Virus record (IMG/VR): IMGVR_UViG_3300004463_000226
Span: 124,001 to 188,000 of that record
Source: a virus
Length of the DNA stretch: 64,000 bases
Reading direction: 5' to 3' (one strand)
The notes beneath the pieces are model-generated. The model made no database searches. It saw only the letters and a list, made by a program, of their open reading frames with translations, and was not told where the DNA came from. Each line of letters opens with the position of its first letter. Positions within the stretch are counted from its first letter, which is position 1. The position numbers and the translations under genes were made by a program. Below, one piece after another: positions 7,867-18,731 of the stretch.

Positions 7867-9594
7867 TTAGTTTGTACCTTGGTCAGCTTTAATTGAAATG
7901 TACTGGTTACTGCTCAATAATAATGCAACGATAGACGTAGCAGCACGTAAGATTTCAACATCTGTATGACAAGGGTTAATTACATCAGCCGAATAAGTAT
8001 CTGTGATTAAATCATAGCACAGTTCCTTTTCAATGGCTTCATCTACAATTCCATGTAGGAATGCTTCTGGCTCTGTAGTGTATTTTCTACCTAATACTTT
8101 AGTAAATACCTCACAGAAAGCTGCACGTAGAAGCATAAGAATGTTTTGCTCAACGCATACTTCTTTGTATTGTGTTTCAAGAAGATGGTCGATTGCAATA
8201 GGAATAATAAGGTTTCCACCAATATTATATCCATAGTGATAAGCTGATTCACATGCTTTAACAGCATCTTCAACTAGATCATAATTACTTGCTTTTTCAA
8301 GCCCAGATTGTCCACCAACATGAATAACACCCATGATTCCTTTTAGCTTAGATAGACGTTTCTTTACTTCATATAGCTGGGAATCAACGATATTCAACTC
8401 TTGGTGAGTTTGCTCAAGTTTGCTGAACTTAGCGCGAGCATCACGCAATGCTACTTGATACATTTCCTCATTGCGGTTATAGAAACCTCTAATAAGTGTT
8501 GTATCTGGTCCAACAGCAATACTATCTACTTGACCAAGGAATGAAGATATATCTGGTACTTTTTCAGGATCTTCAGAATTAAATGCATATACATCAGTAT
8601 CACGAATAATCATACCACCAGTCATGATAGCAAAATCATTGAACTGTTCTTGGAATAGATTACTTGATAACATAGCGCGTGTATATACAACTGCTGTAGT
8701 TCCATGTTGATGCATTTGTTGATTCGCTTGAGTGCGAATATGGTTAAGCATAAATGAATCGAAGTGTGGTGCAATTACCACTAAGCGACGACCTTCGTGA
8801 ACTGCAAGAGACATTGCTTTATAGATGATTGTATTGTAGTGCGACTCAAGGTCAACCTTATGGTCGAACATTAGAATCAGCGGCTTGTTAATGTTACAGA
8901 TTCCATCATCATTGGTTGCATAGATTGCATCTAGGTACGTAATTAAGGCTTTATAGCCTTCAACGATTTCATATGTAGTCTTTGCAGACCGAGCTTTAAT
9001 GAACTCAATAGATGGATTTTCTGTTTCTTTGTAAATAGTGCGGATGATATCTGAAACCTCAGTATCGCCGTTAGTTGAAATCATCGCTAAACGATAGATT
9101 TCATCAAGATCTGGAGACCCAGCCGCATCAATTTTAGTAGAGCGATTAAGAACTTCGCCTGTAATAGATTCTACTGCACGTTTAAGAGAATCAATTACTT
9201 CTTTAGGGCGAACCTTCTTAAGTTGCTCGCTACTTTCAAGTTTTTTAAGAATAGAGTTAGCTGCTACGATAGAAGATGTACTACCGTCACCAACTTTAAT
9301 TACAACTTGTGCGCTGATATTAACCAGCAGTTGAAGAAGGTTTTGCTCTGTTGGATCGTCAAATGAAATCTTTTTAAGGATATTCCAGCCGTCCTTTGTA
9401 ATATGCATTTCACCGAATTTTTCAATGATAGCTGTAGCACCGTAAGGTCCTAATGTATTAGTTAGCATAGTTGCAACCTGATCAAATACGTTGCGAACGC
9501 GTGCTCTAAATTGGGTCTCTTCAATAACATTCCAGTTTAATGACTTTTTATAGTTTTTTGGTAAAAAAGTTTCACTTAAAGTAGGTTCAGCCAT
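7867..9594 (-). CDS. Phage chaperonin (GroEL/thermosome family)
   Basis: Predicted ring-forming ATP-dependent protein-folding chaperone of 575 residues (GroEL is 548). Nucleotide-binding motifs are present: TLGPYG (47-52), ITKDG (65-69) and GDGSTS (102-107), with the conserved aspartate D103. A C-terminal VEDAVKAC...GGN stretch matches the GroEL VDDA...GGG region, including the catalytic aspartate. The ILKKI..DDP segment reads more like group II chaperonins than GroEL, so it is a divergent member. phiKZ-like and AR9-like jumbo phages carry divergent chaperonins that probably fold abundant phage proteins. GGAGGAG lies eight bases before the ATG. No co-chaperonin gene is visible nearby. Confidence 0.9.
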   Translation of the reverse strand: MAEPTLSETFLPKNYKKSLNWNVIEETQFRARVRNVFDQVATMLTNTLGPYGATAIIEKFGEMHITKDGWNILKKISFDDPTEQNLLQLLVNISAQVVIKVGDGSTSSIVAANSILKKLESSEQLKKVRPKEVIDSLKRAVESITGEVLNRSTKIDAAGSPDLDEIYRLAMISTNGDTEVSDIIRTIYKETENPSIEFIKARSAKTTYEIVEGYKALITYLDAIYATNDDGICNINKPLILMFDHKVDLESHYNTIIYKAMSLAVHEGRRLVVIAPHFDSFMLNHIRTQANQQMHQHGTTAVVYTRAMLSSNLFQEQFNDFAIMTGGMIIRDTDVYAFNSEDPEKVPDISSFLGQVDSIAVGPDTTLIRGFYNRNEEMYQVALRDARAKFSKLEQTHQELNIVDSQLYEVKKRLSKLKGIMGVIHVGGQSGLEKASNYDLVEDAVKACESAYHYGYNIGGNLIIPIAIDHLLETQYKEVCVEQNILMLLRAAFCEVFTKVLGRKYTTEPEAFLHGIVDEAIEKELCYDLITDTYSADVINPCHTDVEILRAATSIVALLLSSNQYISIKADQGTN

Positions 9595-13174: not shown

Positions 13175-13978
13175 TCATAACGACTTTGTAGCAGGATGTT
13201 CGATGTTTTCTCCGCCAGGAATAACTTCTCTTTTCCATACGCTGGAAACTTCAGTCACTGGACGACTATCTATTGTTTCCATAGTAGGGAAATTTTTAGC
13301 AGCTTCTTTAACGAATTCTTTTCTCAATGTTTTCATCTCTCTTGCTTTTTCCTTAGCACGTTTACGCTGTTGTTTACGTTTCTCTGTGCGAGTTAGCGGT
13401 AACTCTTTTGGTGGAGCTGGATGCATTGAAAATGCTTGTTGAGCTTCTTTGAGAAATGGACCCGTTTTAGAACCTCTACCATAGAAACCAGCCAATGAAT
13501 CAATTATGATATGTCTATGGGCATTTTCATCGTCCTCCATTTCTTTAACAGCTTCAGACAATCTCATCTTAAAATCATCAAATTCATAATGTGTGATTAT
13601 GTCACCTTCTTCCAGAGCAGCTCTAGTAAGAATTTCTGTCATAAAAGATGTTTTACCTGTACCTTGAGGTAATGGTAGTAGCTCAATACCTTCATCAGAA
13701 TTTACAAAATGTCTAGGGACATTTTCATCAACACTAGGATCTACCATTCTTTTGAGATGAGTATTTGGACCCACAATTCTATTACAGTTATCCAATATCA
13801 TTCTTTGATATTCTTTCAATCCAGGAAAATTAGGATCTTCTCCGCTCATAAATTCATAGAACTCAAAAGGTGTCATTTTACTAAAATCCTTAACACCTTC
13901 ACCAGTATCAACAATATTGATCTCTAATTCCTTATGGTTTTCACCATATAAACTTGATGCTTGAATTTCTTCTGACAT
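13175..13978 (-). CDS. P-loop protein with basic C-terminal helix and IQASSLYG leader
   Basis: 267 residues. It begins MSEEIQASSLYG, a leader shared with the gene to its right. A helicase-like Walker A box, LPQGTGKT, is at residues 103-110, and a hydrophobic strand ending IIID (Walker B-like) follows about 55 residues later. A long basic helix, TEKRKQQRKRAKEKAREM, lies near residue 200, followed by a short tail. Later helicase motifs are missing, so it is a minimal ATPase or a truncated one. It may load or remodel a nucleic-acid complex; this is inference. Confidence 0.65.
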   Translation of the reverse strand: MSEEIQASSLYGENHKELEINIVDTGEGVKDFSKMTPFEFYEFMSGEDPNFPGLKEYQRMILDNCNRIVGPNTHLKRMVDPSVDENVPRHFVNSDEGIELLPLPQGTGKTSFMTEILTRAALEEGDIITHYEFDDFKMRLSEAVKEMEDDENAHRHIIIDSLAGFYGRGSKTGPFLKEAQQAFSMHPAPPKELPLTRTEKRKQQRKRAKEKAREMKTLRKEFVKEAAKNFPTMETIDSRPVTEVSSVWKREVIPGGENIEHPATKSL

Positions 13979-14012
13979 TAAATTGTCCTCCTAGAAAATA
14001 TATTTTTTTAAT
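13938..14012. repeat. Leader repeat copy 1 (promoter region, ribosome site, first codons)
   Basis: About 75 bases covering the upstream AT-rich segment, the CTAGGAGG ribosome site and the first dozen codons of the gene at 13175-13978. It is nearly identical to 14448-14520, which has the same position relative to the neighbouring gene. Confidence 0.7.
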
Positions 14013-14482
14013 TAATAAGGTAAATTGATACTTCTGTGCCGAGGTAACCTGTATCTACCATAGAAGCTATTCCTGTTGAGCATACTATGTGCATTATGTA
14101 ACGCTTCCTCATACAGTTTAACACCTTCTCTGGACACCATAACATTTCTTGCCAGTATTTTACTTTTCTTTTCAAGCATTTTAAACATGTGGTATAATGT
14201 GTGTCGATATGAGCCACGTCCTATACCGCTAGCATAAAAGTAATCATGAAACTCAGGTTTAGATATCATAGAATCAAACTTTCTTCTCATAGCATCTCTG
14301 TCTTTCTCATTCCAATGAATACCTGCATATAGACGTAAATTTTCTTCAGGTAAAGATTTATCATATGGAAATCCATAACCAAAACCCCAGCTATTATAAA
14401 TTGCTCGTAGTGAAATTTCTGTAGCCGAAAGTCTTTTTACAGACCCACCATATAAACTTGATGCTTGAATTTTTTTCGACAT
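14012..14482 (-). CDS. Hypothetical protein with IQASSLYG leader
   Basis: 156 residues, basic and aromatic-rich, unrecognised. It begins MSKKIQASSLYGG, almost the same 12-residue start as the P-loop protein next to it, while the rest of the two proteins is unrelated. The DNA upstream (ribosome site and AT-rich element) is also duplicated. The shared start may be a targeting or packaging tag, or simply a copied expression leader. Confidence 0.65.
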   Translation of the reverse strand: MSKKIQASSLYGGSVKRLSATEISLRAIYNSWGFGYGFPYDKSLPEENLRLYAGIHWNEKDRDAMRRKFDSMISKPEFHDYFYASGIGRGSYRHTLYHMFKMLEKKSKILARNVMVSREGVKLYEEALHNAHSMLNRNSFYGRYRLPRHRSINLPY

Positions 14483-14520
14483 TTTAATATCCTCCTAGAA
14501 AATATATTTTTTTACTATTG
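14448..14520. repeat. Leader repeat copy 2
   Basis: Second copy of the repeat described at 13938-14012, covering the start of the gene at 14012-14482 and its ribosome site. Confidence 0.7.
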
Positions 14521-14659
14521 ATGGTAAGATAAGTATAAGAACTAAGATGATGTATATTAACAAACGATGTCTAAATAGAAACTCCCATGATAGGATCACA
14601 CACTTCATGATGTAGTTAAACACGAATGGTATAGTATGATACGGATTCAACCATTTCAT
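14495..14659 (-). CDS. Small single-pass membrane protein
   Basis: A 54-residue protein whose ATG overlaps the stop of the upstream gene (ATGA), with AGAGG eight bases before it. Residues 33-48 form a continuous run of I, L and V, a clear membrane segment, flanked by R30/H31/R32 and a K50-K51 end. Its short size and coupling to the upstream gene support expression. A holin-like, inner-membrane anchor or exclusion role is possible, but nothing in the sequence decides. Confidence 0.6.
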   Translation of the reverse strand: MKWLNPYHTIPFVFNYIMKCVILSWEFLFRHRLLIYIILVLILILPSIVKKYIF

Positions 14660-15039
14660 TTTCTTGACCTCTTATATCTTTTACTGCTCTTTCCACTATT
14701 ATAATATATATTTGATTGCTGGTATGATGCATGTTTTTGATAACTTTCTGTACCTAAGAACTTATGAATAGTATTCTTATACTTTGCTTTCTTCTCGGTA
14801 TAAGCATAATACTTCATTAACGGCTGTATTTTATTCACATAGTATGAACTAATAGGAGCGAATGCTTTTATGACAAACTCCTTTATTTTATTCCAAGCGT
14901 CCATGATAAATGCAGCAGCTTTTTTAAGATATTCTTTCATATCATCTATTTGACTAGATAATTCTGGCTGAGATGCTTTTAGTTTCTCTATAGCATCTTC
15001 AAATACTTCATTAGTTGAGGAATTAATATTTGTTTCCAT
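14656..15039 (-). CDS. Hypothetical helical protein
   Basis: 127 residues: an acidic N-terminus, a long amphipathic helical region (about 25-80) with a hydrophobic AAAFIMDAW segment, and a very basic C-terminus ending KRYKRSRK. It is translationally coupled to the small membrane protein downstream, so the two may act together at the membrane. The family is unknown. Confidence 0.6.
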   Translation of the reverse strand: METNINSSTNEVFEDAIEKLKASQPELSSQIDDMKEYLKKAAAFIMDAWNKIKEFVIKAFAPISSYYVNKIQPLMKYYAYTEKKAKYKNTIHKFLGTESYQKHASYQQSNIYYNSGKSSKRYKRSRK

Positions 15040-15090
15040 TCTGATCTCTCCAATCCTAACATTAATATGAAGGGGATGTTAATATAGATA

Positions 15091-15118
15091 AGATACAGTA
15101 CCAAACGGTACTGTATCT
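15091..15118. terminator. Strong 12-bp hairpin (possible terminator)
   Basis: Perfect stem AGATACAGTACC (15091-15102) with 15107-15118 around an AAAC loop, between the genes ending at 15127 and starting at 15039. No good T-run follows on the minus strand, so RNA processing or stability is an alternative. Confidence 0.55.
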
Positions 15119-15126
15119 CTACATTT

Positions 15127-15423: not shown

Positions 15424-17361
15424 TTATACTCGTAAGATATTTGTAAAATATTTCTTATCAGAAGCTTTGATAGTTTCAACACCTAATGCCTCTAATACCG
15501 AATAGAAACGTGAAATGTTATCATTCACAATTGTATCATAGTCGATATAAGGCAATAACCATTCAGGTATTGATTCAACACTTCTTGGGATTGCAATGAT
15601 TTGAACACCTTTCTCAACAAGCTTCTTATTATTACCATTAAACACATGCTTCATCAATCTATCATACGCTTCTGGGAAAACTTTCTTTAAAGGTTCAATA
15701 TGCTCAGGCTTTGTCATCTTAACTTTGACAATATCAATCTTCTCAGGTAACTGTATAGCAAGACTTGGATAGATGATATTCCAAGCAAGTACTCCTCGAA
15801 CACCTTGCTCCTTATAAGGGTCTTTGTATGCTTCTATCTCTTTAACTGACTTAGGAATTAAGAAACTCTTTTCACCTTTATGTAGAGATTCCTGAATTAT
15901 TCCCTCAAGCTTTTCTAGTTCCCTTAATACAGATGAGATACTAATATCATCTTTATATAACAATTCCTTCTTCACTAGATTAATAAAGTAAGCTTTTGTT
16001 TCCTCCCGTGTAGATGACTTAACAAAATCCATTCCTTTGATATCAATCTTCTCAGGATAAATCTCATGACCCTCACGAAGACGCACACTACTGATATATC
16101 TCTTCTTACTACCAGAAAGTATCAATCGTGTAAATAAGAATTCGTTCTTCATGTTAATCTTAGGTCTGAATTCTTTCAAGATATTTGAATCCTTGGTATA
16201 CTTCTTAAGTACATCTGTAACCATGTTTGTCAGGAAATAACACATCATATTGATACTGATGAATCGTAACTCCATAGGATCTCTTTCTAATAGATGGTCG
16301 TTTACAGATATAACATTGCGATTGATAAACTTAACCCAAGGATCTAAATTCAACATGTTTGAGTCTGTGTCTACAGTTACTACAACTTTACGTTTATCAT
16401 TCTTCAGACGTTGAATACGTCCAAAAGGTGAATGATTATAGAATACAAACTCTTTATAATAGTCCCATAAGTCCTCTAAGTTACTTTGCACATTCTTAGG
16501 AACCTTATTTGGATCCTTAAATGACTCTGTTTTATTAACAGCTGTGACTATCTTATATCGTATCTTACGAAGATATGAGAACTTATAGATGTTATTCTTA
16601 AAGTAGATACGATTAATAATATTCTGAGGTAAACTCATCAAGTACTCAAATAAGATAAATTCATACTCAGGTTTAAACTCATAGAAAGAATCTGCCAGAT
16701 GGTCAATTAGTTTCTCAATAGAAACATTGGGCAAGAAACCATCATCTTTAATATGTTTCTCCCTACGAACATTTTCCAAAAACATCATACAATCATCAAG
16801 GTCAATAAACGGTACGTTGTTTGCTAAGAATGCTTCAAACGCTTGTTGCGTTGTACTGATAAGCGATTGACCTGTTGCTGTTACTGATGTTGCGGTATAA
16901 AGATTAAAGAAGTTAGATGTTGGTGCACCAGATGCTCCATAATATGAGTTAGCATTAATCTTTTCTGTTAATTGCATTCGGTCTAATGCCATGTAATCAT
17001 AAGAGCCTTCTTGATGATCTGGTAACTGATTCTTATAAAACTTACGTAACTTAAGGAAGTTATCTAACATGACAGCGGCAGGATTTAATACTTGGTCTTG
17101 ATTCCAGAAGAATACTCCAAAACCTGCTGCTATTGCATTGGTATTTCTAAACCAATCAATCATTGATAATAAATCTACATCTATGTCTAAGTGATTATAG
17201 TTATTATGCATAGATGCTTTTGGATTCACTAGCCGTTCTTTAATAACTTCGTCCAGGAATCCTTTTATTTCTTTCTTTTTTAATTCAGGATACATCGTTG
17301 TGAATATCCTAGTGTAGTGCTTTTTCCAATCTTCGAGAAATATATGACTCTTCTCTCCCAT
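15424..17361 (-). CDS. Family B DNA polymerase, C-terminal half (fingers, palm motif C, thumb)
   Basis: Replicative polymerase fragment of 645 residues. Motif B reads KINANSYYG at residues 134-142, the KxxxNSxYG of family B fingers. Motif C is VDTDS at 331-335, supplying the two catalytic aspartates. A KKRY-type thumb motif with downstream KGMDFVKSST lies near residues 435-470. There is no 3'-5' exonuclease domain and no motif A; both are in the gene at 49904-51730, about 32 kb away. The two products must associate to make an active enzyme. The gene has its own AAGGAG site and ATG, so this is a true two-subunit arrangement and not a frameshift. Confidence 0.9.
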   Translation of the reverse strand: MGEKSHIFLEDWKKHYTRIFTTMYPELKKKEIKGFLDEVIKERLVNPKASMHNNYNHLDIDVDLLSMIDWFRNTNAIAAGFGVFFWNQDQVLNPAAVMLDNFLKLRKFYKNQLPDHQEGSYDYMALDRMQLTEKINANSYYGASGAPTSNFFNLYTATSVTATGQSLISTTQQAFEAFLANNVPFIDLDDCMMFLENVRREKHIKDDGFLPNVSIEKLIDHLADSFYEFKPEYEFILFEYLMSLPQNIINRIYFKNNIYKFSYLRKIRYKIVTAVNKTESFKDPNKVPKNVQSNLEDLWDYYKEFVFYNHSPFGRIQRLKNDKRKVVVTVDTDSNMLNLDPWVKFINRNVISVNDHLLERDPMELRFISINMMCYFLTNMVTDVLKKYTKDSNILKEFRPKINMKNEFLFTRLILSGSKKRYISSVRLREGHEIYPEKIDIKGMDFVKSSTREETKAYFINLVKKELLYKDDISISSVLRELEKLEGIIQESLHKGEKSFLIPKSVKEIEAYKDPYKEQGVRGVLAWNIIYPSLAIQLPEKIDIVKVKMTKPEHIEPLKKVFPEAYDRLMKHVFNGNNKKLVEKGVQIIAIPRSVESIPEWLLPYIDYDTIVNDNISRFYSVLEALGVETIKASDKKYFTNILRV

Positions 17362-17373
17362 GTGTTTTCTCCT

Positions 17374-17901
17374 TTACCATCTATATCTAGGCATAATTAT
17401 CTCCTTGATTTCATTGGATATTTTCTTATCCCTCCATTCATAGTACGGCTTATCTTCCAACATTATCATTGCATATCTAAGCATATCTTTTGCCGATACA
17501 TTGACAAATACATACATCTTATTATCATCGAACTTAACTAAATCTTTTTCATCAACTATGTCGATGTAGGTATTGACATATACTTCATTATCATCAACCC
17601 AACCATCATTTACTATATCACCATATTCCTCACCCACCCTTGTGAATGAATATTCACCTTCATCATCTAACGTATCTAGGAACCTCATAAAGTTCTTTAT
17701 TTCAGGAAATCCACCATGAAAGTCATACCACTTGACATGATCAAACTTCATAAGAATATTTCCCGTTGATTTAAACATTTGTTTTTCAGTTTCTAATAAT
17801 AAATTTTCCTCATCGGGAATATTATTTTCCTTCATCCATATTAAACCTTTATGATATGATTGCTGTGTTAATACTATAGCAACCTCACTCGTATAACCCA
17901 T
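17374..17901 (-). CDS. Hypothetical protein, paralogue of 19449-20090
   Basis: 175 residues starting [11 protein letters not shown] at the ATG at 17901, eight bases after GGAGAG. It shares its plan with the protein at 19449-20090: a short start, a W.K...IP segment, KGNILM/F, then an acidic loop near a hydrophobic strand. It is a small globular protein of the sort often found in phage and prophage accessory regions. Its start overlaps the end of the zinc-finger gene by 17 bases. Function unknown. Confidence 0.65.
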
Positions 17902-18139
17902 CAGTCTTACTCTCCATTTCCTTTTCTTTATTAGAATCATCAATTATTTCTACACATAAATTAACACATTCATCACAAATATAAACATTAGGTCCAGCAA
18001 TCAACTTCTGAACTTGATGTTGATTTTTACCACAGAAAGAGCAGTGTAGAGTATCAAACTTACCCTGCATTTTTAATAAATTATCATAAGCCTTTGCTTT
18101 ATCAACTACTTCATGAAACTGCTGTTGTAAGTCTGACAT
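17885..18139 (-). CDS. Stand-alone ClpX-type zinc-binding domain protein
   Basis: 84 residues whose centre (33-65) is nearly the same as the N-terminal zinc-binding domain of ClpX: C33SFC36GK...[12 protein letters not shown]55DEC58...C62. In ClpX this domain dimerises and binds adaptors and substrates for the ClpXP protease. Here there is no AAA ATPase behind it, only a helical N-terminus and a charged C-terminus. It could compete for adaptors, bring phage substrates to host ClpXP, or block ClpX hexamers. The ATG at 18139 lies one base after the upstream stop. Zinc ligands are seen directly; targeting of ClpX is inference. Confidence 0.85.
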
Positions 18140-18140
18140 A

Positions 18141-18731
18141 TTAACCCAACTCCACTGTAATTTTATTGTCTTTCTTATATTCTTTGATAGCTTTTTCAAG
18201 GGCTAATACATTTCGTTGAGTAAGGAATGCAGTAGCGGAATTACCATGTTCAGTATCTTGAATTCTTAAACTCAGGTCACCCCATTCATCTTCTAGAGTA
18301 ATTAACTCATCACACTCACCTATTGTTTTGAGATATAGTTTAGTCTTTTGGTCATTATGAGAATTGACAAAATCATCAACGACTTCTTCCTCATCATTAT
18401 CAGGGAATTCAATTAACTTATCTAACGTGAATGTTGGATCTCTAAACTCACCTTTAATTAAAGTATCAACCACTCCCATAACTAGAACAAATTCATCTTT
18501 ATTAAGAGATGTGACTATAGTATTCAGTGTATTTAATGTTATAGCCATTGATTCAGCAGTATCTACAAATATCCTATGAAACATGAAATTACTAGCACCA
18601 GTTGTAATCTTAGCATCGCTCTTTGCGAAGATACTGTGTTTAGCATTAAATATTGCCTCGTTGTTAATTAACATTAATTTTCCAGCAGCTTCTTTCTTTA
18701 ATAATAAATTTACTTTCACAGTTTGAATCAT
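18141..18731 (-). CDS. Hypothetical protein, first gene of the polymerase-containing operon
   Basis: 196 residues, unknown family; an acidic loop ([11 protein letters not shown]) lies in the middle. TAGGAGG precedes the ATG, and a TATATATTATA-N4-GGTA promoter element lies 28 bases upstream. It heads the run that continues with the ClpX-type zinc finger, the 17374 gene and the DNA polymerase C-half. Confidence 0.7.

Follow-up and report, generated by a model that had tools for sequence, protein, structure and literature searches.

The window, by which we mean the whole stretch of 64,000 nucleotides analysed (bases 124001–188000 of a 234,335-bp virus record), encodes two neighbouring, otherwise unrelated proteins that begin with the same short peptide behind near-identical DNA, and a like peptide opens different small proteins near the family B DNA polymerase gene (polB) in three other phage lineages. 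Together, these observations suggest, with a probability that we put at roughly 0.4, that the peptide is an N-terminal docking tag of polB-adjacent proteins, and that a copying event carried it and its leader onto an adjacent gene.

The two gene starts and their leader

The features of the region, in window coordinates, are the following.

13175–13978, minus strand: gene of P0001, 267 aa, in which LPLPQGTGKTS resembles a Walker A motif by eye and a basic stretch near the C-terminus is predicted helical
13943–13978, minus strand: N-terminal tag with which P0001 begins, MSEEIQASSLYG
13986–14009, minus strand: first leader copy, an AT box with the palindrome AAAATATATTTT (13995–14006) joined to CTAGGAGGA
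14012–14482, minus strand: gene of P0002, 156 aa, basic (27 K+R, 14 D+E)
14447–14482, minus strand: N-terminal tag with which P0002 begins, MSKKIQASSLYG
14490–14513, minus strand: second leader copy, the palindrome (14499–14510) and then CTAGGAGGA, overlapping the end of the upstream 54-aa ORF
14495–14659, minus strand: hydrophobic 54-aa ORF ending in KKYIF, its start overlapping the stop of the preceding gene
14656–15039, minus strand: 127-aa gene with a basic C-terminus, upstream in the run of tagged genes
15424–17361, minus strand: polB, the family B DNA polymerase catalytic subunit (family matches), whose motif B, EKINANSYYGASG, resembles the tag

An 82-nt direct repeat on the minus strand, 84% identical (13942–14023 and 14446–14527, spacing 504), covers both gene starts, and BLASTP aligned P0001 with P0002 in a single 18-residue match at their N-termini (E 0.001), the remainder being at chance level (E 0.7 and worse). 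The shared N-terminal peptide and near-identical start DNA on unrelated neighbours that the initial annotation had described were thus confirmed. Within a 68-nt core, 61 of 68 bases are identical and the seven mismatches are confined to 17 nt running from just after the ribosome site to codon 4 (4e-4 under random placement), a diverged spacer flanked by two fully identical blocks of 24 and 27 nt; the AT box and ribosome site, like the IQASSLYG codons, show no difference. All eight codons of IQASSLYG are identical between the copies (3e-4 for two genes drawing codons independently from the usage of the window gene calls), and the copying thus happened at the DNA level.

The leader itself recurs beyond the tagged pair. 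Against expectations of 0.30 and 0.12, respectively, TCTAGGAGG occurs four times in the window and AAAATATATTTT twice, the latter count being equalled in 2 of 100 shuffles. In the 234-kb record there are three instances of the exact palindrome, every one of them at a gene start and immediately followed by CTAGGAGG. The gene behind the third copy (record 202678–202723) starts MSGIKEFF and lacks the tag peptide; at 11 gene starts of the record CTAGGAGG precedes the ATG by a few bases, versus 0 for the reversed control. The leader is therefore a start-associated repeat independent of the peptide, and the earlier proposal of a copied 5' cassette holds at the level of DNA. The stop codon TAG of the 54-aa ORF falls within CTAGGAGG of the second copy. 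A search of viral contigs with the leader DNA gave 0 matches. Of the 79 window gene calls, 9 have TATATATTA in the 120 nt upstream, and TATATATTAT-like boxes were seen by eye further upstream of other window genes. The two 75-nt leaders have no more RNA structure than shuffled sequence (z −0.5 and −0.4), and a role as hairpin operator was rejected on these values. Directly upstream of the third leader copy lies a tubulin/FtsZ-like gene (PF00091, E 3.6e-15; L005 1574–2704, minus strand).

Repeated DNA immediately upstream of several starts, ribosome site included, is also known from the SAS of cluster K mycobacteriophages, whose consensus is GGGATAGGAGCCC and whose extended form (ESAS) carries 17-bp inverted repeats, as given in PMC3203893. 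The present leader differs from it in sequence, combining CTAGGAGG with a 12-bp AT palindrome in three full copies, and two of these copies run on into coding sequence. As an AT-rich element upstream of genes, it also recalls the early promoter of AR9, described in PMC5312081 as AAATATATATTAT-6N-G with 5' UTRs of 26 nt or more. The leader sequence deviates from this element, however, and its AT box abuts the ribosome site, so that a transcript start 6 nt downstream would fall inside the ribosome site; the leader was accordingly not taken as a canonical early promoter of the AR9 type.

Neither tagged protein of the window could be placed by homology. P0001 matched no family above the curated cut-off (its best hit was a weak PHROG match, E 0.01), nor did P0002; neither contains a Pfam polymerase domain (PF00136 or PF20286). 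Homologues of the two were absent from viral contigs and, by tblastn, from 11 polB loci of relatives; in the phage collection P0001 found six records at E 3 and P0002 none, and among ten whole records of relatives each found none (0/10) in a search run without a positive control. Structure predictions from the single sequences, at a mean pLDDT of 44 each, were too poor to use. A second stretch like the tag, NSFYG, lies near the C-terminus of P0002 (14057–14071, minus strand), and P0005, a protein of the relative L019, has SSFY near its own C-terminus.

The polB of the window is uninterrupted and finds its nearest counterparts in the phage collection in Bacillus phages PBS1 and AR9 (33% identity over 99%). 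A hairpin, GATACAGTACC/GGTACTGTATC, at 15090–15119 separates the polB run from the run with the tagged genes; it scored as terminator-like on both strands, such sites numbering three in the region where 2.0 are expected. The family search with the 127-aa gene yielded nothing above cut-off. Elsewhere in the window, a ClpX-type C4 zinc finger (PF06689, E 1.6e-20) is found in a 104-aa ORF (17885–18199, minus strand) too short for the ClpX ATPase, so that a stand-alone adaptor-binding domain is possible, and a phage chaperonin of the cpn60 family (PF00118, E 1.4e-26) is encoded at 7867–9594 (minus strand), with a homologue downstream of polB in 9 of 11 relative loci.

Like tags beside polB in other lineages

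The initial annotation had proposed that the record and its relatives be searched for further starts of this kind. Relatives bearing polB were gathered as 11 and then as 68 loci, in overlapping sets, and gene starts in them were chosen by ribosome-site scoring. In L019, the closest relative (polB 68% identical), the 187-aa protein P0005 starts MEKIVMSSMYG and is encoded in the interval between polB and a conserved 272-aa gene, an interval of 0.5–4.4 kb in the nearer relatives read (L014, L015, L017, L018, L019 and L021). A 148-aa protein of L038 starts MNKINMGSIYG, and a 199-aa protein of L039 has KMVMNSIYG at its N-terminus, the motif lying at residue 18 by the chosen start. The tagged genes of L038 and L039 share both conserved flanking neighbours and encode bodies without a sequence match to each other. 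The tags follow the consensus [KE][IM]x[MA][SNG]S[LIM]YG and were present in 5 of 31 records (four lineages), all tagged relatives coming from metagenomic records and two tagged lineages being represented by at least two assemblies each. The distances between the starts of the tagged genes and the polB 3' end are 0.9, 1.4, 2.4, 3.3 and 4.5 kb, a nearness to be read from the whole-record profile search described below, as the loci used for pattern searches had been fetched around polB.

The tagged proteins of the relatives are as isolated as those of the window. An identical protein to P0005 (100%) was found in viral contigs, in two contigs only; in the phage collection its best match had E 0.2, which is unconvincing, and its first 23 residues found no match. 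The L038 protein found only its own record, the L039 protein gave 138 records in the phage collection at a best, unconvincing E of 0.4, and none of the three contains PF00136 or PF20286. A stricter DNA pattern for the tag, written without TCA codons and hence missing the window's own tags, matched in 26 of 31 records; among the eight returned loci read, out of 30, only the gene of L019 itself (L116) had the motif at the N-terminus of a convincing gene. The tagged gene of L039/L040 was also among the places returned. One further candidate, KIVLSTIYG near the possible start of a 51-codon frame in L118, was taken as a non-gene. In searches of open-licence papers, no title or abstract opening dealt with this tag or with an N-terminal motif common to giant-phage proteins.

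These relatives bear directly on the best-surviving alternative, a purely regulatory duplication in which the copied unit was a strong leader, consisting of palindrome and ribosome site, and the 12 opening codons came along with it, making the peptide a passenger. The confinement of the exact palindrome to three leaders, the third of them without the peptide, and the recurrence of CTAGGAGG before ATG are what such a duplication would produce, and the identical tag codons fit a young duplication without selection. However, the like peptides in the three other lineages stand behind upstream DNA unlike the window leader and on other bodies. The initial annotation had stated that the repeat would be only regulatory if the peptide diverged in relatives while the DNA was kept; the opposite was seen, and since the peptide is kept in relatives without the leader, the duplication is by that test not only regulatory. 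We regard a passenger peptide as a real, if unfavoured, possibility. The tag has the behaviour of a short linear motif, its sequence and location being conserved where the protein body and the leader are not.

Resemblance of the tag to polymerase motif B

The tag resembles the stretch Kx3NSxYG of family B DNA polymerases, which we take to be motif B. A profile built from the five tag N-termini was run on 31 whole records, of which six are named phages, and matched 19 times, in 13 records; six matches were the tags themselves (five records, one lineage in two), and the other 13 all fell in polB at motif B, in frames of 644–745 aa with places checked by arithmetic. Up to E 10, nothing beyond the tags and polB motif B was matched in the 31 records. 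Eighteen of the records gave no match, and the first look was incomplete in that the six named phages yielded none, their own motif B included. Against 7806 ORFs of 77 sequences, polymerases made up 9 of the top 10 non-tag matches, while 120 column-permuted profiles averaged 0.08 and never exceeded 2, in a test where 'polymerase' was assigned by a pattern including motif B and the polymerases are mutually related. In the Protein Data Bank the profile gave 18 weak matches, led by two hemagglutinins (E 0.045 and 0.11) and followed by 13 DNA polymerases (E 1.2–1.3) and three others, and this result is no more than suggestive. The tagged proteins differ from the polymerases that bear motif B in being 148–267 aa long, none of the five belonging to a Pfam polymerase family. 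On the sequences, the likeness of the tag to motif B may stem from homology or from convergence.

Alternatively, the tag could be a scar of the polymerase, a fragment of polB motif B that the activity of an intron or homing endonuclease joined to other genes and that is now functionless. Interruptions of polB at or near motif B make this the most interesting of the alternatives: they were seen in four relatives examined (L065, L077, L023 and L064), and in L065 a stop codon follows the first polB piece, which ends exactly at NSLYG. Over 18 positions at the start of the L019 protein, moreover, 9 residues (E, K, I, S, Y, G, G, P, N) agree with the polymerase of L019 itself. Against such a scar stand the uninterrupted polB of the window, the lack of any Rfam family at threshold in the four interrupted relatives or the window, and the DNA of tag and motif B, which is by eye not close. 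The five tags, too, all have L, I or M at position 7, where most polymerases listed have Y or F. We consider this origin unlikely. By eye, HNH-like frames lie between polB pieces in L065 (8589–9845) and, at a later site, in L064 (11180–11920). In L022 (5671–7928) polB falls into two pieces, broken after residue 443 and about 345 nt apart; another polB of that contig (L020) is unsplit, and assembly could account for this.

It might also be argued that a short, common-looking peptide arose separately on each gene. A pattern predating the L039 and L038 cases, which had been shaped by the window pair and L019 so that only L039 was found independently, matched 4 N-termini (three lineages) in 1166 non-redundant gene calls of 77 sequences (76 loci and the window), while 300 position-permuted patterns averaged 0.11 N-terminal matches and never exceeded 2; the N-terminal limit was the first 14 residues, and then 18, where the L039 motif lies, for the permutation count. 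The same pattern gave nine interior matches, eight of them polymerase pieces left by the filter. The L038 case was noticed by eye and the classes were widened afterwards, giving five N-terminal matches in 1165 genes. Interior matches for four pattern variants numbered 8, 7, 9 and 2, as sorted by one polymerase motif only. The motif is short and the enrichment figures are post hoc and overstate the case; a looser pattern also matches unrelated starts, namely that of the AR9 RNA polymerase gene and a 71-aa frame in BpSp, and the profile scores about 12 bits against the Protein Data Bank polymerases, where two hemagglutinins score higher. Nevertheless, the permutation controls, together with the position of the tags within 4.5 kb of polB in the whole-record search, speak against separate origins, which we deem quite improbable. 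With the post hoc caveats, one short peptide thus recurs in unrelated proteins beyond chance as far as sequence comparison goes.

Targeting, docking and the spread of the tag

The initial annotation had also raised a targeting or packaging tag like the capsid-targeting leader of T4 internal proteins. Targeting in its general form is favoured by the like motif on other N-termini of relatives whose upstream DNA differs; T4-like packaging is not. The outward form is indeed alike, as the T4 capsid targeting sequence of internal proteins and Alt is a short N-terminal sequence, of 10–20 residues according to PMC5694885, on otherwise very different proteins (PMC3012670 and PMC5694885), and serves to load foreign proteins into heads (PMC3012670); the likeness is one of form. 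The tagged genes adjoin polB, however, and giant-phage propeptides are mostly far longer, as indicated in PMC5694885. The first 60 residues of the five tagged proteins were also scanned for the sites [LI]xE and [SAG]xE. These we take, only in part from PMC5694885, to be prohead-protease site motifs, and they were found at differing places or not at all, L019 and L039 having none, rather than at a common place. A capsid-targeting or ejection-protein leader is therefore very improbable. An import or localisation signal for a phage replication compartment, with which the place of the genes beside polB and the tubulin-like protein encoded in the record would agree, is hardly to be expected, given that in PhiKZ-type phages recognition is thought to act on a surface, no conserved signal sequence having been found (PMC11087766).

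It is thus as a docking tag that the peptide is best understood, and here the source gene, the direction of copying, the docking and the partner are what we infer. The leader, a 12-bp palindrome with CTAGGAGG, would be a repeated translation-start element serving three genes of this phage, and the tag a protein-level short linear motif on small, unrelated proteins just 3' of polB in some phages of the group. The gene at 14012–14482 is the likely source of the tag, since its size and place are about those of the tagged genes of the relatives (148–199 aa). Its 5' end, comprising the leader and first codons, would have been copied onto the gene at 13175–13978, and the recipient, a P-loop-like protein, would thereby have gained the same tag. 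The tag would dock its bearer to one common partner, for which a replication protein is the first candidate because the tag resembles motif B and the genes adjoin polB. A broader and rather doubtful extension is that a group of giant phages marks polB-adjacent proteins with an N-terminal imitation of motif B of their polymerase, transferable by copying the 5' end of a neighbour, and that the mark recruits its bearers to whatever handles that part of the polymerase, or makes them compete with it.

If true, this would point to an unrecognised way of assembling accessory proteins. The tag would also offer an approach to orphan genes for which neither sequence searches nor structure predictions gave an explanation, and its copying, with the leader, onto an unrelated gene would provide a concrete case in which new phage genes may gain expression and an address together.
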